Assembly: GCF_001267535.1 (NCBI RefSeq)
Contig: NZ_JRXE01000015.1
Coordinates: 40,915-77,177 of the forward strand
Direction: 5' to 3'
DNA: 36,263 bases
Source of the DNA: Winslowiella iniecta
GTDB taxonomy: Bacteria > Pseudomonadota > Gammaproteobacteria > Enterobacterales > Enterobacteriaceae
The notes below the pieces were generated by a model that saw nothing but the letters and a program-made list of their open reading frames with translations, had not been told where the DNA came from and made no database searches. The translations under genes and the position numbers were made by a program. Numbering within the stretch: the stretch's first letter is position 1; every line of letters begins with the position of its first letter. Of this stretch, positions 2,666 through 14,305 are shown piece by piece.

Positions 2666-2860
2666 TCAGGAGATCGCCGAATCGGAGTTATGTTTATGCT
2701 TATCCGCTTCGAAGTGATCTTTAAACTGCTCGTAGATAGAGATCATATTAGAGGCATCGCCCTGCAATGGGCTGAGTTTACCTGCGCGCACCAGCTCAAT
2801 AACCAGTTGCAGTGCAGCCTGCTTAGGGCTGCTGGATGGATGTGCTATTTCGTTAGACAT
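2666..2860 (-). CDS. Small hypothetical protein (64 aa)
   Basis: I do not recognise this protein. It is soluble and rather polar: a likely helix (PKQAALQLVIELVRAGKL), a middle segment (GDASNMISIYEQFKDHF), and a charged His/Lys-rich tail. There is no signal peptide or membrane segment. The composition looks like a real helical microprotein and not a shadow frame, because nothing else is coded convincingly here. The ribosome site is weak (GGGAAT upstream). It lies alone between the uronate operon and the DUF305 region on the opposite strand to the former. Confidence 0.5.
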   Translation of the reverse strand: MSNEIAHPSSSPKQAALQLVIELVRAGKLSPLQGDASNMISIYEQFKDHFEADKHKHNSDSAIS

Positions 2861-2963
2861 ACGATTCCCGACAAAGTGTAAAACATTAACTTTAGCAAGT
2901 TTAGCCTGGCCCCGTTACCCTTTTCAGTACCGGAGGCTGGCGTCCGCAGCAAAATCAGGCAAA

Positions 2964-3098
2964 TCATCCATCAAGCGCAAAGCTGGCTTCATTCTCGATT
3001 TTCAAATCCGGCGAGAACAACTGACTGACCTGAACCAGCGAACGGGCTGGCAAATGATTGCCATAGCGGGCAAACAGTTCCCGGCGGTAGGGAAACAC
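2964..3098 (-). pseudogene. RidA/YjgF-family C-terminal remnant
   Basis: Read on the minus strand from a GTG that overlaps the DUF305 stop codon, 44 codons give a tail resembling the end of Rid-family proteins: LPARSLVQVSQLF, then SPDLKIENEASFAL, ending at TGA. In intact RidA relatives the PARS-VQV-L-DLKIEIEA strand and helix are the last third of a roughly 115-130 residue protein. The first two thirds are missing: the in-frame sequence upstream belongs to the DUF305 gene in another frame and hits a stop at once. This looks like a deletion remnant left when the DUF305 gene came to lie here. Identification is by motif memory, so the exact Rid subfamily is open. Confidence 0.6.
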
Positions 3099-3448
3099 TA
3101 TTTATTCTGCTGTTTCAGCCATTGCTGCATGCGATCGATTTCAGGCTGCTGAGCATCAATAATTTCCTGCGCCAGTTTGCGCATTGCCGGATCTTTACCG
3201 TATTTAAGCTCGGTTTTTGCCATCTCAATCGCCCCCTGATGATGCGCCGTCATGCCCTGGGCAAAAGCAATATCAGGATCATCAGTTTTTATCCCCTGCA
3301 TCATATCGTCGTGCATCTTCGTCATACCGCTGTGATAACTCTGCCGGGCACCGCTCTGTTGCGCGTGGTCCTGATGCGCCGACTCGGCAGCATATGCGCT
3401 GAGCGGTGCCAGTAGTGTGATAAATAGTAAAGGTTTCATTTTATTCAT
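3098..3448 (-). CDS. DUF305 family periplasmic protein, copper-linked
   Basis: This 116-residue protein starts with a signal peptide (MNKMKPLLFITLLAPLSAYA, cleavage after residue 20). A His/Met-rich mature part follows: HQDHAQQ (25-31), MTKMHDDMM (42-50) and the DUF305 hallmark QGMTAHHQGAIEMAK (64-78). DUF305 members include CopM, a periplasmic copper-binding protein of cyanobacteria; the Met/His pairs fit Cu(I)/Cu(II) or Ag(I) binding. The length is that of a single DUF305 domain. GGGAAA lies four bases before the chosen ATG. Upstream on the same strand is a textbook-like CueR promoter, which supports copper induction. The stop codon overlaps the remnant of a RidA-family gene. Confidence 0.85.
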   Translation of the reverse strand: MNKMKPLLFITLLAPLSAYAAESAHQDHAQQSGARQSYHSGMTKMHDDMMQGIKTDDPDIAFAQGMTAHHQGAIEMAKTELKYGKDPAMRKLAQEIIDAQQPEIDRMQQWLKQQNK

Positions 3449-3486
3449 TGGTTTCCCTCATCAGTCAGATATCCTCAGACATTAAC

Positions 3487-3517
3487 AGGGTAGACCTTCC
3501 CCTTACGGTAAGGTCAA
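3487..3517 (-). promoter_or_regulatory. CueR/MerR-type promoter-operator for the DUF305 gene
   Basis: On the minus strand a TTGACC -35 (3512-3517) and a TACCCT -10 (3487-3492) are separated by 19 bases. That overlong spacer is characteristic of MerR-family activators. The spacer holds the dyad GACCTT-N11-AAGGTC (3493-3515). From memory, the inner sequence, including GTAAGGGGAAGG, closely resembles the E. coli cueO and copA CueR boxes. The -10 lies about 40 bases upstream of the DUF305 ATG. Confidence 0.82.
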
Positions 3518-3553
3518 GTTATGAGGCTAATTGTGGCAGCCCGCCAGAACGAC

Positions 3554-3576
3554 AAAGCCCGCACAAGGCGGGCTTT
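3554..3576 (-). terminator. Rho-independent terminator of the zinc-ribbon gene
   Basis: A perfect 9-bp stem AAAGCCCGC / GCGGGCTTT with a 5-base loop begins 5 bases after the minus-strand stop codon at 3582. It ends in a TTT run in that direction. Confidence 0.8.
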
Positions 3577-3581
3577 AAGGG

Positions 3582-3755
3582 TTAAACATCTTGATTTTCC
3601 AGACTACTCTGCAGTATCGACGCTGGCGTCAGGGGTTTACTGCAATGGCTACATACCGCCCCGTGGGGATGATTTTTGCTGCTGTCAACGACGGTGAAGA
3701 GAAACGTCGAACAACCGCAGTCGGTGCAACTCAGGCTAATACTGGAGATATCCAC
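3582..3755 (-). CDS. Small zinc-ribbon protein (57 aa)
   Basis: A GTG-started 57-codon frame on the minus strand encodes VDISSISLSCTDCG at the start and AVCSHCSKPLTP later. Two CxxC pairs (C10/C13 and C35/C38) are spaced as in a rubredoxin-like zinc ribbon. It resembles the small putative zinc-binding proteins named after ECs_2282 in enterobacteria (from memory). The frame ends just ahead of a strong terminator, which supports a real transcript. The start is uncertain: GAGG lies almost against the GTG, and no in-frame stop lies close upstream, so a slightly longer protein is possible. The cellular role is unknown. Confidence 0.6.
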   Translation of the reverse strand: MDISSISLSCTDCGCSTFLFTVVDSSKNHPHGAVCSHCSKPLTPASILQSSLENQDV

Positions 3756-5901: not shown

Positions 5902-6001
5902 CCACCGTGACGTAAAGTTGCCACGCGCGGCCCCGGCTGAGGGGCGCTGAAACTGGCATCCCGATAAATTTGTGCCAGGTTTTTAATAAGGAGGAGATAT
6001 T

Positions 6002-9128: not shown

Positions 9129-9440
9129 TTATAAGGCGACAACCTCACTGACCTGATGCTGAAAAACATAGGGATCGGACAGCAGTTCAAATTGCTCATC
9201 GTCAGCGTAAGTGACCGCGACATGGTAATCCTCCCCGGCAAACGCTTTTACCGCGTCAATATCCGACCAGTAAGTGGCGAGAAAAAAATGCGCCCACTCT
9301 CCCTGGGTTTCACGACGTACAAAAGCGCCCAGATTACCTGCCACGCCTTGTGAATGCTGTACACCGGTAAGCTGCAAATGTGCGGCAAAACCTTCAGCAA
9401 ATTTAACCGGCACGCAGCCATGCCATGTTCTGACAATCAT
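9129..9440 (-). CDS. Antibiotic-biosynthesis-monooxygenase (ABM) fold protein
   Basis: This is a 103-residue single-domain dimeric alpha+beta barrel protein. Features include an MIVRTWHGCVP first strand, a substrate-facing helix (VKFAEGFAAHLQLTG), FVRRETQGEWAHFFLATYWSDIDAVKAFAGED, and a C-terminal SDPYVFQHQVSEV. The W-S/D-ID-VKAFAG pattern is common in ABM proteins that handle heme, quinones or small reactive molecules. AAGGGG lies 5 bases upstream of the ATG. The exact substrate is unknown. Note that a second, unrelated ABM-like gene lies in the Tn3 region at 11060-11335. Confidence 0.75.
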   Translation of the reverse strand: MIVRTWHGCVPVKFAEGFAAHLQLTGVQHSQGVAGNLGAFVRRETQGEWAHFFLATYWSDIDAVKAFAGEDYHVAVTYADDEQFELLSDPYVFQHQVSEVVAL

Positions 9441-9533
9441 AGTACCCCTTGCGTTGTTATTTAATATTTTGTGAACATAACATTTTTGCGGCGAAAAAGG
9501 TTATCGGTGCGGGTCAATTCATTTTAAACGCGA

Positions 9534-9562
9534 AATGCCAGTCACCTGAGGCGACTGGCATT
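9534..9562 (-). terminator. Terminator hairpin of the DUF1471 gene
   Basis: AATGCCAGTC (9534-9543) and GACTGGCATT (9553-9562) pair over 10 bases. The hairpin lies 33 bases after the minus-strand stop at 9595 and is followed by TTTCGCGTTT in that direction. Confidence 0.75.
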
Positions 9563-9594
9563 AAACACTGGAGATATCAGGATAACTGAAATGA

Positions 9595-9807
9595 TTATTT
9601 AATCAGGTCAGCGGTCATATAAACCTGGTTGCCGACGCGGGCGCTGGTGATTTTATAAGATGATGCACCCGCTTCCTGAGCTTTCGCCGCAATGCGCGCT
9701 TCAGCAGTATCCAGATGGCTACCGTATGCGGTGACGGATTGTGCGAAGCTGCCAAAAGAAACGGTAGCAAGGGCAATTACTGCAACAAAAGTTTTGATAG
9801 ATTTCAT
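9595..9807 (-). CDS. YdgH/BhsA/McbA-like (DUF1471) periplasmic protein
   Basis: The protein has 70 residues, with a signal peptide (MKSIKTFVAVIALATVSFGSFAQ). The mature DUF1471 domain ends with the usual pattern: TAEARIAAKAQEAGASSYKI, then SARVGNQVYMTADLIK. Family members such as BhsA, McbA and YhcN respond to acid, peroxide or metal stress and affect biofilm formation and permeability. GGAAATAAACC lies just upstream of the ATG. A terminator hairpin follows, so it is a single-gene transcript. I cannot tell which paralogue it corresponds to. Confidence 0.9.
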   Translation of the reverse strand: MKSIKTFVAVIALATVSFGSFAQSVTAYGSHLDTAEARIAAKAQEAGASSYKITSARVGNQVYMTADLIK

Positions 9808-10105
9808 GGTTTATTTCCTTCAGTTTTTTGACCGGGAGAAGACTCATCGCCTTCGATAGAACAATAATAGCCATACGAAGCCAATGTTAATAGCGGAGCT
9901 ATTTGCTTATCTTTGTCAAAAAAACTGATTTAAAATTACACTGCTACTTTTGTTAGCTTAGATTATGACTGCTGCCACAACCTGGCGGCCATCTCAGCAC
10001 TTTAATTCATCTCTGTGACTGTACCGACATATTTCACTGAGTCCTCCGGCGCAAATTGGTCAGCGCCTATAATCAGTGTGTTCACAATGGAATTGGGGGT
10101 GATTT

Positions 10106-10417
10106 ATGTTATGGCTTGAACAAGGACTTTACCTGAGAGTGAAACAACTGGAAAACGGCCCGCGCCCGCTCCCTTTGCAAAGTGGTTTCAGTAGCGAGTT
10201 TGCCTATCGCGCGATCGGTTGTTTTAATCCTTCAGAAACCTCTGACGCATACTATATCTTGTCCAATGATCGTGATGAGGTGTGGTTTATCTGCAATCGC
10301 CATTTAAGAACCGTCTGTCTTGCTGCGCAATTAACTGAATTCAGAATCCCCTTATCCGCCACGTCCCCCGTAAATGTCGGGGTAAATGACAGTTTTAACC
10401 GCACCGGCACCACTTAA
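10106..10417 (+). CDS. Hypothetical protein (103 aa) beside the Tn3-type element
   Basis: The ATG is preceded by GGGGGTGAT, a good ribosome site. The protein is soluble: [22 protein letters not shown], then [43 protein letters not shown]. It looks like a compact conserved enterobacterial protein that I cannot name. The last 20 or so residues ([20 protein letters not shown]) are low-complexity and polar, and the stop lies only 40 bases before the target duplication of the Tn3-like element. The gene may therefore have lost or changed its natural end, but this is not proven. Confidence 0.6.
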
Positions 10418-10457
10418 CCTGTGCGCTTCGGCTAAAGACTTTCTGGCGGGATAAACC

Positions 10458-10462
10458 TTATT
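10458..10462 (+). repeat. Target-site duplication, left copy (TTATT)
   Basis: TTATT directly abuts the outer GGGG of the left Tn3-type end and recurs at 12739-12743 beside the outer CCCCC of the right end. Confidence 0.7.
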
Positions 10463-10500
10463 GGGGCCCGCCTGGAAAACGGAAAATATCCTACGCCAAG
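10463..10500 (+). repeat. Tn3-family 38-bp terminal repeat E (outer left)
   Basis: The 38 bases start GGGGCCCGCC, contain GGAAAACGGAAAATA and end CTACGCCAAG. This matches the Tn21/Tn1721-type layout (GGGG at the tip, GAAAACGGAAAATA in the middle, ACGC-AAG inside). The tnpA fragment reads toward it, as in an intact Tn3-family right end. Confidence 0.85.
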
Positions 10501-10804
10501 CCTGTTTTTTGTACATGCCACTATCCACTGAGCGTAATGAACGGTATTTACCCTGTCCCAGCTTAAGGTTTGTCCGCCAGACGTAATCCCCACTCAGATT
10601 GATGTGCTCCCATCCCAGCGGAGACAAATGAGAAATCAGTTGCTCATTAATCGGGATCCCTTTTCGTCTCAGGGAATCTATAGCTCTTTCTATATATACC
10701 GTATTCCACAGGGAGATCGCCGCAGTCAGCAACGTCAGACCACTGGCCCGGTAGCTCTGATTCTCCAGCACCCGATCTCTGATCTCACCCAATCGGTGTA
10801 TAAA
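10501..10804 (-). pseudogene. tnpA: Tn3-family transposase TnpA, C-terminal fragment
   Basis: About the last 100 codons of a roughly 1,000-residue Tn3 transposase remain on the minus strand: [60 protein letters not shown] and GKYRSLR. These are the conserved segments after the last catalytic residue. The frame is cut at 10804, exactly at the tip of another Tn3-type end (10805), so the rest of the gene is gone. The open frame runs on past the inner end of repeat E to 10352, but that extension is not transposase. It cannot be an active enzyme. Confidence 0.9.
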
Positions 10805-10842
10805 GGGGTCTGTTTGGATATCGAGAATTATTGTACGTTTAG
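10805..10842 (+). repeat. Tn3-family terminal repeat A
   Basis: 38 bases starting GGGGTCTG, containing TTTGGATATCGAGAATTATT and ending GTACGTTTAG; left-end orientation. Confidence 0.8.
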
Positions 10843-11022
10843 CGCATTATTTAACCACATCAGCCCGTAAGGGATTGATTTAGTATCAATGGCTATCGCT
10901 TTTGAATGATCGCCTTAGCAAGTATCGCATTTAGGTTATCCGATTAAACAAAACCCACGGCAAAAGGCGTATAGCGCGGGAGTACACCTTATTGCGATAA
11001 CTTAGCCTGTTCAAAAAACAGG

Positions 11023-11060
11023 CTGATCGTACAATAATTTCCGATCTCCAAACTGACTCC
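11023..11060 (-). repeat. Tn3-family terminal repeat B
   Basis: On the minus strand it starts GGAGTCAG, contains TTTGGAGATCGGAAATTATT and ends GTACGATCAG. It is in right-end orientation, and its tip touches the stop codon of the passenger monooxygenase gene. Confidence 0.8.
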
Positions 11061-11335
11061 TACTCAATCTCTGGGATTTCGTATTCTCTGGCAATCATGC
11101 TGGTTTCTCTTCCCCAGACAGAATTCTTGGTTCTTTTTTGGTGAGCGTCAAAGGTAGCCTGGTTTGTAAAAAGCTCTTCGACTTTCCAGATCATGGGATC
11201 TGCCGTTTCCGTGACTTCAAATGACACGCATCCGGTTTCTTCCCTGGTCAGTTCCTTGTGTTCAGGAAGGTACTGGCGAACAATGTCTGCTTCTTCTGCA
11301 CTTTTACACACCAAACGACCAGTCAGCTTAATCAT
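11060..11335 (-). CDS. Passenger ABM-fold (quinol-monooxygenase-like) protein
   Basis: This is a single-domain ABM protein of about 91 residues: MIKLTGRLVC, EADIVRQYLPEHKELTREETGCVSFEVTE (the typical helix then GC-SFE strand), MIWKVEELFTNQATFDAHQKRTKNS and a C-terminal IAREYEIPEIE. Related proteins include YgiN-type quinol monooxygenases and small cofactor-free oxygenases. Three ATGs lie in tandem (11341, 11338, 11335); the last has the best spacing from AAAGGGA. Its stop overlaps the outer base of Tn3 end B. It is divergent from the GNAT gene over about 180 bases and belongs to the AT-richer passenger block. Confidence 0.75.
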   Translation of the reverse strand: MIKLTGRLVCKSAEEADIVRQYLPEHKELTREETGCVSFEVTETADPMIWKVEELFTNQATFDAHQKRTKNSVWGRETSMIAREYEIPEIE

Positions 11336-11516
11336 CATCATCCCTTTATTTTCATGAGGTTTTATCGGTTTTCCAACAATAAACCTACACCAAATAATCG
11401 GGATAAAGAAACCAGGAAGTATCAGCCACGATACTTACGGCCCCTGCTGACCACGTCTAAGGGATGTTATGGTAAATCTGAGTGGCTAGCAGTTACAGGA
11501 CAAACAAGGAGAAGCT

Positions 11517-11987
11517 ATGAAGGTCAGACTCGCAACACCTGTTGAGGCCGAAGAGTGTTGGAACATTAGGAACCAGGCTATTCGCCATGGATGCAAGTGC
11601 AGCTACGATGCTGCGGTTATTGACGCGTGGACGCCAGCAGCAATGCCTGAAGGTTACAGGAGAGTTATCGCAGCAAATCCTTTTTTCGTCGTTGATGGTC
11701 CTGATAACAGACCGGTGGCGACAGGTTTCTTGGATCTTTCTGCAGGAAGCGTTGAGGCTATTTTCACTTTGCCAGAACACCTCGGCAAAGGTTTTGGCGG
11801 ACTGATTATTGATGCTATCAAAGAAGAAGCGCGTAGACAGGGGTTTGAGAAATTAACTTTATCCTCAACGCCTAATGCACAATCTTTCTACGAAAAACAT
11901 GGATTTACTCTCGTCAAAGAAAGTCTCTATCCATCAGCGCTTACCCAGACGGATCTGCGTTGTATGGATATGGTTAGTAAGTTATAG
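11517..11987 (+). CDS. Passenger GNAT-family N-acetyltransferase
   Basis: This is a 156-residue acetyl-CoA-dependent acetyltransferase. Strands FFVVDG and ATGFLDLSAGSVEAIFTLPEHLGKGFGGLII carry the acetyl-CoA pyrophosphate loop (LGKGFGG, residues 92-98). LTLSSTPNAQSFYEKHGFTLV is the standard motif B, with the Tyr often used as general acid. AAGGAG lies 6 bases before the ATG. The substrate is unknown; the protein is not recognisable as a known aminoglycoside or tabtoxin enzyme. Arg codons AGG and AGA are frequent, unlike the neighbouring chromosomal genes, which supports acquisition with the Tn3-type element. Confidence 0.88.
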   Translation: MKVRLATPVEAEECWNIRNQAIRHGCKCSYDAAVIDAWTPAAMPEGYRRVIAANPFFVVDGPDNRPVATGFLDLSAGSVEAIFTLPEHLGKGFGGLIIDAIKEEARRQGFEKLTLSSTPNAQSFYEKHGFTLVKESLYPSALTQTDLRCMDMVSKL

Positions 11988-12038
11988 AAGCAATCCCGCT
12001 GTCGCAGGCAAAAGCGATAGCGGTTCGCCGCCAGGATG

Positions 12039-12440
12039 TTATGGCAAATATTGCATTACTAAGATTGCTGTTCCTGCGAGGCTGCATAGCATTGCCAAGG
12101 GATTTATGAACAAAATCCCTATCGATGTAGAAAACAACCCACGAAAAATCATATTGCCAGCAAGCCCTCCGACGATGAGGGATAAAACGGTATAACCAAC
12201 AACTTTCAGCAACGACAGTTCTCCCCATATGGCCTCTACTACCGGATAGATAAAAACACCAACGCCTGCCGGAAATGTTGTAACCATCAAAAGTAGATGG
12301 GTTTTGGTGGGTCCGTACTCTCGAACATTTCCTACTTTCATCAAGTGTGTGATGAATGAAGCTATCCACCATAGGGTCATAACCGTAAGGAAACTGTAAT
12401 TCATTGATTTTATTACCAACGCTGGATGATTGTGGATCAT
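12039..12440 (-). CDS. Passenger small integral membrane protein (133 aa)
   Basis: Four hydrophobic segments are visible: FLTVMTLWWIASFITHLM, THLLLMVTTFPAGVGVFIYPVV, VVGYTVLSLIVGGLAG and ILFINPLAMLCSLAGTAILVM. Short loops separate them and the N-terminal stretch is charged. I do not recognise the family. The first ATG (12440) has a weak ribosome site, and an internal ATG at residue 13 (MNYSFLTV) is a plausible alternative. It is convergent with the GNAT gene (51-base gap), and its AT-rich upstream region runs into Tn3-type end D. Confidence 0.6.
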   Translation of the reverse strand: MIHNHPALVIKSMNYSFLTVMTLWWIASFITHLMKVGNVREYGPTKTHLLLMVTTFPAGVGVFIYPVVEAIWGELSLLKVVGYTVLSLIVGGLAGNMIFRGLFSTSIGILFINPLAMLCSLAGTAILVMQYLP

Positions 12441-12562
12441 GATTATATCTTTTTTTTCTTATTAAAATTAATAGGTTTAGTATTTTTTTCAGCGAGGTGG
12501 TGTTGTGGAGTGGTATTGGTCACTTCGGGGAGCAGGCAAGAGCATTTTGGTTAAAAAGCAAT

Positions 12563-12599
12563 CTTAGCGTGGTTTATTTTCGTTTTCCAAGCGACCCCC
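12563..12599 (-). repeat. Tn3-family terminal repeat D (37 bp)
   Basis: On the plus strand it starts CTTAGCGTGGTTTATTTTC and ends in CCCCC. It is strikingly like a reversed Tn21 end with one base missing in the GTTTTCCAAG part. It is in right-end orientation and lies 101 bases inside the outer end C. Confidence 0.75.
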
Positions 12600-12700
12600 A
12601 ATAGGGATTGCCTATCTATGCCTTCAACCTGCAAAGCCATACCCGCTATCAGCTACGTGGTTGCTTCATTGGAACGAAACCACCTGTAAAGCTCAAAACG

Positions 12701-12738
12701 CTTAACGTAGGATAATTTCCGAATTCCAAACTGCCCCC
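12701..12738 (-). repeat. Tn3-family terminal repeat C (outer right)
   Basis: The 38 bases start CTTAACGTAGGATAATTTCC on the plus strand and end CTGCCCCC. The reverse complement carries GGGGG, GAATTCGGAAA and ACGTTAAG like Tn1721/Tn3 ends. TTATT follows immediately. Confidence 0.85.
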
Positions 12739-12743
12739 TTATT
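12739..12743 (+). repeat. Target-site duplication, right copy (TTATT)
   Basis: TTATT abuts the outer CCCCC of end C and equals the 5 bases left of end E. Confidence 0.7.
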
Positions 12744-12920
12744 GCTATTGTGCCGGTAATCCGGTTAATCGCAGCGCTCTTTCAGGCGAACACGCTGAGG
12801 ATAAAAAGCGCAGGTAATCAATCGGGTAATGGCTGGAGCCGGGCTTTCTCGTATCATCTCTCACCGGATCGCGTTATCATTAACGGCTGTTTAATCGCGA
12901 AACCGCCCCGGAGAGTCTTG

Positions 12921-13019
12921 ATGAACAAAAGAGCCATTGCCCCTGCCATTATCTTTATTGCTGCTATAGTGTTTTTCGTCTGGTTTATTGCCAGCGGCGC
13001 AGCAGTGCCGGGAAGCTGA
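12921..13019 (+). CDS. Single-span membrane peptide (32 aa)
   Basis: GGAGAG lies 6 bases before the ATG. The peptide starts MNKRAIAPAIIFIAAIVFF, continues with VWFIASGAAVPGS, and contains one transmembrane helix. Longer in-frame starts exist upstream, but none has a ribosome site. It is convergent with umuC (24-base gap). Short single-span proteins of this kind are common in enterobacteria, but I cannot match it to a named one. Confidence 0.5.
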   Translation: MNKRAIAPAIIFIAAIVFFVWFIASGAAVPGS

Positions 13020-13042
13020 ACCACGGCGGCTACGCTGAAAAA

Positions 13043-14305
13043 TCACTTCGCCACCGGTAAATCTGCAAAACGCGTAGTGTAGGCCGGAGACAGCATTTCT
13101 CGCTTCATCGCCCACGACTTACTGATCCCCTGACCGGCAAACCAGACTTTATTTTTACCTGACTTGTTCAGGTGATCGATCACCTGCATCAGCGCCTCGC
13201 TGTCCGCCCGTGGACGGTATTCATCAAACAGATTAAGCTGGGACACGCCCTGGCTGAAAAAGTCTCCCAGCATCACGCCTGCTTTCATGTAACGGTGCCC
13301 GTCAATCCATATCCGCTCCAGCGACTCCATCGCGATACGCACGATGTCCCGCGTATCATTTGACGGCGTCAGCAACGTTCCGCCCGCCTGGTTACCGTAA
13401 AACTGCTCGCCAGGCGTGTGCGGACTGGTACGCAAAAACACCGCAATCTGCCGACAATACTGCTTCTCACCGCGCAACTTCTCCGCCGCACGTTCGGCAT
13501 AAGCACACACTGCCTGACGCATCTCCTGATAATCAGTAATACGGCTGCCAAACGAGCGCGAACAGACTATCTGTTGTTTGGTGGGCATCACCTCTTCCAG
13601 CGCCAGACAAGGCTCACCATTGAGTTCCCGCACGGTACGCTCAAGTACCACGTTAAAATTTTTACGGATAAACCACGGCGTGCATTCCGCTAACTGCAAC
13701 GCGGTCTCAATGCCCATCAGGTTCAAGGTTTTACTGATGCGCCGCCCCACTCCCCAGACATCCTCAACCGGCACTATACTCATCAGTTTTCGCTGCCGCT
13801 CCCGGTCTGACAGGTCGAGCACCCCACCGGTCTTTTTCCATTTTTTGGCGGCATGGTTAGCCAGCTTGGCCAGTGTTTTAGTCTGAGCAATACCCACCCC
13901 GACGGTCAGATGGGTTTCTTTCATCACCCGGGCGCGCACATCACGACCAAACTGCTCCAGCGACATGCAGTGACTGACGCCGCTCAGATTCATAAAGGCC
14001 TCATCAATGGAGTAGATTTCCACCGCAGGCGCCATCTCTTCCAGCGTGGTCATCACGCGGTTACTCATATCGGCATACAGCGCATAATTCGAACTAAAAA
14101 CTTTTACCTGATGCCGCTGAATTTCCTCTTTCATTTTGAAGTACGGCGCACCCATTTTGATGCCGACCGCTTTCGCTTCCGCGCTGCGCGCAATGACACA
14201 ACCGTCATTATTCGACAGCACCACCACCGGAACGCCACGTAAATCGGGCCGGAACACCGTTTCACAGGAGGCGTAAAAGCTATTCACATCCACCAGCGCG
14301 AACAT
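13043..14305 (-). CDS. umuC: DNA polymerase V catalytic subunit UmuC
   Basis: This 420-residue Y-family polymerase carries out error-prone translesion synthesis with UmuD'2 during the SOS response. Catalytic acidic residues are D6 in [13 protein letters not shown] and D101/E102 in [10 protein letters not shown]. The steric-gate aromatic is Y11, the thumb/HhH segment is [17 protein letters not shown], and the beta-clamp box QLNLF is at 356-360. The numbering follows the E. coli protein. The ATG lies one base after the umuD stop, so the two are translated together under the same LexA box. It ends 23 bases from a convergent membrane peptide. Confidence 0.97.

Follow-up and report, generated by a model that had tools for sequence, protein, structure and literature searches.

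The stretch of DNA analysed here, hereafter called the window, comprises 36,263 nucleotides of contig NZ_JRXE01000015.1 (contig C15) from Winslowiella iniecta, the draft genome of which consists of 92 contigs and 4.78 Mb. Positions 10463-12738 of the window (2,276 bp) are bounded by two Tn3-type transposon ends, called E (left) and C (right), and have the sequence TTATT on either side. The stretch is a mosaic of plasmid-type sequences which is likely to have entered the chromosome as one Tn3-type transposition unit, and it carries a gene cassette between two XerC/XerD-type recombination sites. The right flank of the E–C unit contains umuC- and umuD-like genes, in an order also found on a 4.92-Mb contig of a relative, G018, and the locus was therefore taken as chromosomal. 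The boundaries of the unit and the neighbouring host gene are as follows.

10106..10417, plus strand: host gene left of the unit, its final 20 codons inside 106 bp that are absent from G018
10458..10462, no strand: putative left target repeat TTATT, a flank common to E and C alone
10463..10500, plus strand: end E, left boundary of the unit, 35/38 to that end of an E. billingiae-type Tn3 transposon which lies on the transposase side
12701..12738, minus strand: end C, right boundary of the unit, matching a 286-bp mini-element at its right end in 36/38
12739..12743, no strand: putative right target repeat TTATT, after which native sequence resumes in G018

Tn3-type ends and their flanks

A weight matrix was built from 20 Tn3-type ends taken from other records and scanned over the 36-kb window. 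The matrix leans towards the ends of the window, since its 20 ends came through similarity to pieces of the window; one of these ends was also aligned a single base out of register. The five best sites were E and C together with three internal ends, A, B and D, at the coordinates of the original prediction, which had placed five ends within 2.3 kb. All five are real, with scores of 54.2 (C), 48.0 (A), 46.0 (E), 44.3 (B) and 13.8 bits (D) above a chance maximum of 10.5 bits, the best of 100 Markov-shuffled windows. E and A point to the right, and B, D and C to the left. The 5-mers immediately outside the ends are TTATT (E), ATAAA (A), TACTC (B), AATAG (D) and TTATT (C). Only E and C among the six left/right pairs have matching flanks, as had been claimed, and agreement in at least one of six random pairs has a probability of about 0.008; the flanks of E and D, TTATT and AATAG, are unequal.

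The original prediction had also likened E and D to Tn21 and C to Tn1721. The Tn21 label for E and the Tn1721 label for C were dropped, as E is closer to the E. billingiae transposon end (35/38) than to the Tn21 end (29/39), and C is closer to the plasmid mini-element end (36/38) than to the Tn1721 end (29/40). D is a near tie between Tn21 (33/40) and the E. billingiae end (32/39).

Comparison of the insertion site with a relative

The search for an empty site covered 60 relatives, 37 genomes of the genus and 295 genomes of the family. Among the matches listed for the relatives and in the genus and family genomes, only G018 reached the junction. The two flanks adjoin each other in G018, where native sequence begins directly 3′ of the right TTATT; the join reads CCCCTATC followed directly by GCTGTTG, compared with CCCCTTATT followed by GCTATTG in the window. 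G018 thus confirms the right junction but not the left one, because it lacks the 106 bp adjoining E (10357-10462). The empty site joining at TTATT that had been proposed as a check was accordingly borne out on its right side, where G018 joins at the matching spot. If E–C moved as one unit by transposition, the empty site is expected to read GATAAACC-TTATT-GCTATTGTG with one TTATT.

The sequence CCCCTTAT is present at both 10348-10355 and 12735-12742, so a short-repeat deletion, starting from either a filled or an empty site, can account for the gap in G018 and would fit it. Alternatively, the insert would extend leftwards to 10357, with foreign DNA in the 106 bp that precede E, and G018 would represent the original site, with TATC where the window has TTATT. 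This would agree with the absence of exactly 106 bp from G018, with its join of CCCCTATC to GCTGTTG and with the lack of any plasmid match to the query 10340-10475. The host gene argues against it: the product in the window, 103 amino acids, resembles the homologues in G002, G009 and G029 (98-101 amino acids), whereas the G018 frame extends to 107 amino acids. Moreover, the deletion at CCCCTTAT in G018 yields the same join, and the matrix scan gave no Tn3 end at 10357, which makes a start at this position improbable.

A match of 5 bp could also be fortuitous, the pieces having come one by one and E–C never having moved as a whole. The DNA is AT-rich, with TTATT making up 0.23 % of the 5-mers of the window, E and C are an unmatched pair (29/38), and several of the pieces have independently mobile relatives. 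Nevertheless, the probability of about 0.008 for any of the six pairs, the exact restart of native DNA at the repeat in G018 and the mostly plasmid-type nature of the pieces, many of which would have had to reach the same chromosomal position independently, leave coincidence with little probability.

Transposase remnant and related transposons

10499..10804, minus strand: 3′ remnant of a Tn3 transposase gene, truncated at end A (Pfam PF01526, E 2.2e-20)

The unit had been described as non-autonomous and without a transposase. The latter needs correction, as codons 893-994, the final 102 of 994 in a Tn3 transposase gene, adjoin E, in frame up to A and with 95 % amino acid identity to TnpA of the element on an E. 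billingiae plasmid. With 102 of 994 codons remaining there is no functional transposase gene in the unit, and only two matches to the Tn3-transposase DDE domain, both fragments, were found in the 92 contigs. The unit is therefore non-autonomous today and would depend on an outside transposase, because the genome shows only the remnant and one other DDE fragment. The latter (L079, contig C27, about 2743-3624) covers profile positions 121-389 and is 36 % identical to the E-type enzyme.

The transposon to which E corresponds is complete in the E. billingiae plasmid NC_014305 and in the relative G008. A stretch of the relative G022 (L163, contig C2) is identical to this plasmid of E. billingiae Eb661. 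In G008 (L170, contig C6, 3485-18604) a 15,120-bp Tn3-type transposon has E-type ends and ATTCC on either side, and its transposase of 994 amino acids, without internal stops, is 88 % identical to the E. billingiae enzyme. The equal ATTCC flanks and the stop-free transposase indicate that E-type ends move in this genus. The window shares with these transposons the E end (35/38) and the transposase C-terminus (95 %), but it keeps only 102 of 994 codons, and D, the likely partner end, has decayed.

Identity of the E-type transposon with Tn5403 was considered and rejected. Passages of PMC5142620 place Tn5403 in pKPC-56a at a transposase and resolvase next to traB. The pKPC-56a transposase beside the resolvase shares 34 % identity with the complete E. 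billingiae-type enzyme and 49 % with the window remnant over 80 residues, and the 50-kb stretch around it contained no DNA match to the unit.

Mini-elements inside the unit

10805..11060, plus strand: mini-element of 256 bp with ends A and B, a homologue of the TIME MITESen1, without a target repeat of its own
12563..12599, minus strand: end D, decayed, inside the unit and facing left, scoring 13.8 bits where shuffled sequence reaches at most 10.5 bits
12600..12655, no strand: stretch of about 50 bp present on many enterobacterial plasmids, from sequence matches
12666..12738, minus strand: right part of a 286-bp mini-element, ending in C, 85 % to the L172 and L181 elements

The A–B element has the length (256 bp), the Tn3-type inverted ends and full-length similarity in common with MITESen1. 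It differs in being 81.4 % identical over its full length to both MITESen1 copies of plasmid pSC-KP585-2, in being chromosomal and in having no flanking repeat. Passages of PMC13367494 give a cut-off of at least 95 % identity and coverage for MITESen1, and by its sequence A–B is therefore classed as a homologue rather than a copy. A copy in G035 is closer, with 91 % identity. Of 72,556 plasmids, 3,414 had matches to A–B, which in 1,400 extended over at least 80 % of the element.

Side A lies in the transposase gene and side B against a gene of the antibiotic-biosynthesis-monooxygenase (ABM) family, and the flanks are unequal. A deletion begun by the mini-element is the simplest cause and a likely one. 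The unit could have moved in cis, with a full transposase gene on entry, most of which the MITESen1-like element removed afterwards. The remnant, in frame up to A and 95 % identical to the enzyme of the complete element, would agree with this, as would the unequal A and B flanks, which are as expected after a deletion. On the other side, the ABM gene, a GNAT cassette and a ColE1-like piece (described below) follow B directly, and a full tnpA once lying between E and these would have had to vanish without a trace of its 5′ part. Movement in cis is thus regarded as possible but rather doubtful, and a transposase acting in trans is moderately favoured over the unit's own gene before its loss.

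MITESen1-type TIMEs are reported in PMC13367494 to bound composite units, and Table 1 of that source includes the MITESen1 pair of pSC-KP585-2, 4,800 bp with TAATA. The same pair (L178) measured 4,800 bp end to end with TAATA outside in the record compared here, which has 43,970 bp compared with the published 44,092 bp. Seven single MITESen1-like copies (L164, L165, L175, L177, L179 and the two in L178) were inspected for equal flanks of their own and none had them, L179 being off register and the right end of L165 poorly read.

End D, the weakest of the five, is 37 bp long and is regarded as decayed because it is one base short. Together with its inner flank it matches E-type ends over 48-55 bp at 81-88 %, the 37-bp core being as near to the Tn21 end, and from these alignments it probably belongs to the E group. 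The adjacent stretch of about 50 bp (12600-12655) matched 2,262 plasmids (E up to 1), and in two records (L171 and L179) it lies at most 500 bp from a MITESen1-like element or piece of one.

Over end C and the 35 bp inside it, the window shows 85 % identity to the right-hand part of the elements at 2788-3073 of L172 (plasmid pE66An) and 1502-1786 of L181 (E. asburiae). The ends of the 286-bp element are E-like on the left (33/38 to E) and C-like on the right (36/38 to C), and 296 of the 72,556 plasmids have a place covering at least 80 % of it, at various identities. No name was found for the 286-bp mini-element with E-like and C-like ends at L172 2788-3073.

Cargo between the ends

11060..11341, minus strand: ABM family gene (Pfam PF03992)
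11450..11477, plus strand: XerC/XerD (ColE1 cer-like) site 1, ACCACGTCTAA-GGGATG-TTATGGTAAAT, with the XerD arm identical to that of ColE1 cer
11467..12038, plus strand: GNAT cassette of 572 bp, starting with the XerD arm of site 1 and ending with the site 2 spacer
11517..11987, plus strand: gene of a GNAT-family acetyltransferase (Pfam PF13508 and PF00583)
12022..12049, plus strand: XerC/XerD-like site 2, GGTTCGCCGCC-AGGATG-TTATGGCAAAT, with the XerD arm one base off ColE1 cer
12039..12538, no strand: piece of a small ColE1-like plasmid with about 335 bp missing inside, 86 % and 82 % to LC663733 in two pieces

The cargo is more important than the mobility of E–C, and its main point, a Xer-site gene cassette beside a piece of a ColE1-like plasmid between the ends, was absent from the original prediction. 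The ColE1 cer sequence was taken from the ColE1 record NC_001371. Two Pantoea plasmids contain the region 11459-12055 at 97 % identity, and the relative G001 contains 11463-12049 at 94 %. The shared stretch ends at the sites or within a few bases of them, and its neighbours differ between the contexts. In the Pantoea plasmids the left site has the arm GGTGCGGCCAA, close to GGTGCGTACAA of cer, and the right site has the arm of the module itself with a different XerD arm, an arrangement which would be the expected product of a circle inserting at a cer-like site. The XerC arm GGTGCNNNCAA occurs at the leading sites of L173, L251, L252 and, with an 8-bp spacer, G008. The XerC arms borne by the modules are degenerate, as are both arms of L253 and those of some single sites.

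The stop codon of the ABM gene includes the last base of end B, and no DNA relatives of the gene were found in the other 36 genus genomes. It is likely a neighbouring cassette, cut by end B. A scan of the ABM and GNAT products for defence genes gave no match.

The sequence at 12039-12538 is that which follows the cer-like site in small ColE1-like plasmids. The plasmid pieces and the two Xer-like sites in the unit could suggest that homologous or Xer recombination brought in a plasmid or plasmid circle, which subsequently shrank. This is very improbable, as the boundaries are not Xer sites but Tn3-type ends with equal 5-bp flanks, and an Rfam search of 9400-13900 gave no match up to E 0.5 and thus no known plasmid origin RNA. 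Most of the pieces have plasmid relatives at about 80-97 %, and the assembly from several elements that had been suggested is supported by the different relatives to which they trace.

Proposed assembly and movement of the unit

The mosaic would have been assembled on plasmids. An E. billingiae-type Tn3 transposon may have given end E and the transposase gene, and its cargo would have come from Xer-site cassettes and a piece of a ColE1-like plasmid. The GNAT cassette was probably in place earlier, through XerC/XerD recombination at the cer-like site. As the cognate end D decayed, the intact end C of the neighbouring 286-bp mini-element may have taken over, and the unit would thereby have been extended by 139 bp past D. 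A matching E. billingiae-type transposase, in trans or from the then-whole gene, would have joined E and C to the TTATT target. Insertion of the MITESen1-like element into the transposase gene is likely to have led, before or after the jump, to a deletion fusing tnpA to the ABM gene, which would account for the unequal flanks of A and B.

That E–C forms one unit, as originally predicted, is supported by the TTATT on both sides (about 0.008) and by the right junction, which is where the flanks meet in G018. Other genomic copies had been proposed as a check, and the unit was found once in the draft genome, apart from one 37-bp match. Also in favour are the mobility of E-type ends in this genus, the 286-bp element that pairs an E-like with a C-like end, the kinship of A–B to mini-elements reported to bound composite units, and the plasmid relatives of most pieces. 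Several observations weigh against this history. A clean empty site containing one TTATT was not observed, the sole informative relative, G018, lacking the 106 bp left of E, and E and C are identical at 29 of 38 bases only. Among the 5,000 plasmid records listed none covered 80 % of the unit, the best listed place covering 26 %, and a 4.5-kb query of the unit with its flanks reached 80 % coverage in none of 5,426 E. coli genomes (best 8 %). The DNA relatives of the ABM gene on plasmids, in four records, reach just 66-72 %. Equal flanks were present in one of three complete E-type elements, L170 with ATTCC, but not in L163 (AACTT/ATCTT) or L175 (TATAT/AAGAT), and in none of four copies of the 286-bp element, two of which share their left junction.

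Passages of PMC4133298 and PMC13367494 describe a TIME-COMP as a composite unit bounded by two TIMEs. Its outermost ends carry direct repeats of 5 or 6 bp, and its transposase is supplied in trans. Like a TIME-COMP, the E–C unit has no working transposase, and it has 38-bp Tn3-type ends, equal 5-bp flanks and about 2 kb of mixed cargo. Unlike in a TIME-COMP, its left end comes from a transposase-gene remnant, its right end from a different mini-element, and the complete TIME, A–B, is internal. The unit thus works like a TIME-COMP but is outside the definition, two copies of one TIME, as E and C come from different elements (29/38 alike). It also differs from a Tn3 unit transposon in having neither an intact transposase gene nor equal E/D flanks. 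If the proposed movement is correct, Tn3-type mobility is possible without two copies of one element and without matched ends, and a remnant end and the end of an unrelated mini-element can jointly move anything between them. Annotation easily misses such units, recording little beyond a truncated transposase.

Arrays of cer-like sites in related genomes

On a 1.25-Mb contig of G008 (C5, L219, 7474-9975), five direct cer-like sites separate small genes within 2.5 kb. The sites match at 15 of 15 bases and are spaced by 616, 573, 996 and 289 bp. The units are, in order, a GNAT gene, a second GNAT gene, a glyoxalase-family gene with an ABM gene, and 289 bp, followed by a GNAT gene past the last site. 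At the first site, GGTGCGGGCAA fits a canonical XerC arm, and the spacer has 8 bp, like that of cer. On a 23.7-kb contig of G001 (C2, L221, about 840-1880) the GNAT cassette of the window lies beside the ABM gene of the G008 array; the two ABM products are 92 % identical in amino acids, and the DNA is shared over 470 bp at 89 %, ending at the site. The GNAT cassette is thus preceded by a canonical-arm plasmid site, by one ABM unit and by a different ABM unit in three places, and cassettes have been shuffled among the window, G001, G008 and the Pantoea plasmids. The exact 15-mer was present in 13 of 37 genus genomes (reversed control 1/37) and 31 of 392 family genomes (reversed control 4/392), and adjacent exact sites have the same orientation in the window, G001, G008, L251 and L252.

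On balance, these comparisons suggest that the unit holds a fragment of an integron-like cassette array run by host XerC/XerD at ColE1-cer-like sites. Single small genes would have been added serially, in one direction, behind a plasmid dimer-resolution site as anchor, and the Tn3-type ends would then have taken a piece from plasmid to chromosome. The cassette array is more novel than the E–C unit. If cer-like sites gather single-gene cassettes in Enterobacterales, dimer-resolution sites double as gene-capture sites without a dedicated integrase.

Integron cassettes are single small genes in a row with one recombination site between them, each module carrying its own half-site. The G008-type rows are similar in having small single genes, one site between them and a half-site brought by the module. 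They differ in two respects. The integron core GTTRRRY did not occur between 200 bp upstream and 40 bp downstream of any of the seven sites tested, where RYYYAAC was found twice, near one G008 site, and the 13 reading frames tested around the G008 array yielded no integrase domain.

Text searches of one open-access library listed no report of such arrays in Enterobacterales, and yielded the dif modules of Acinetobacter and Xer-driven rearrangement of small plasmids. According to passages of PMC12907356, Acinetobacter dif/pdif modules resemble the arrays described here in that XerC/XerD sites flank the genes, which stand in rows on plasmids as well as on the chromosome, and neighbouring modules there share alternating C/D and D/C sites. 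In contrast, the sites of the window and its relatives are cer-like (XerD arm TTATGGTAAAT), the neighbours examined have the same direction, and the modules are mostly single small genes.

Pairs of cer-like sites were also observed in other genomes. In G288 (contig C29, L251, 4477-5605) two sites 1,128 bp apart, with a canonical XerC arm and then a degenerate arm, enclose two small reading frames without a known domain. The two sites of L253 are 5.6 kb apart, neither arm being canonical, and fit the pattern more poorly. On a 25.5-kb contig of G033 (C2) one and the same cer-like site recurs at 5981, 14470 and 22972, about 8.5 kb apart, perhaps reflecting a multimer of an 8.5-kb plasmid. In G349 (contig C15, L252, 3609-4475) two sites 866 bp apart, again with a canonical and then a degenerate arm, enclose a gene for a protein of 221 amino acids with a PADLOC match to PD-T4-5 (E 1.8e-18) and weak Abi-like matches, possibly a phage-defence cassette.

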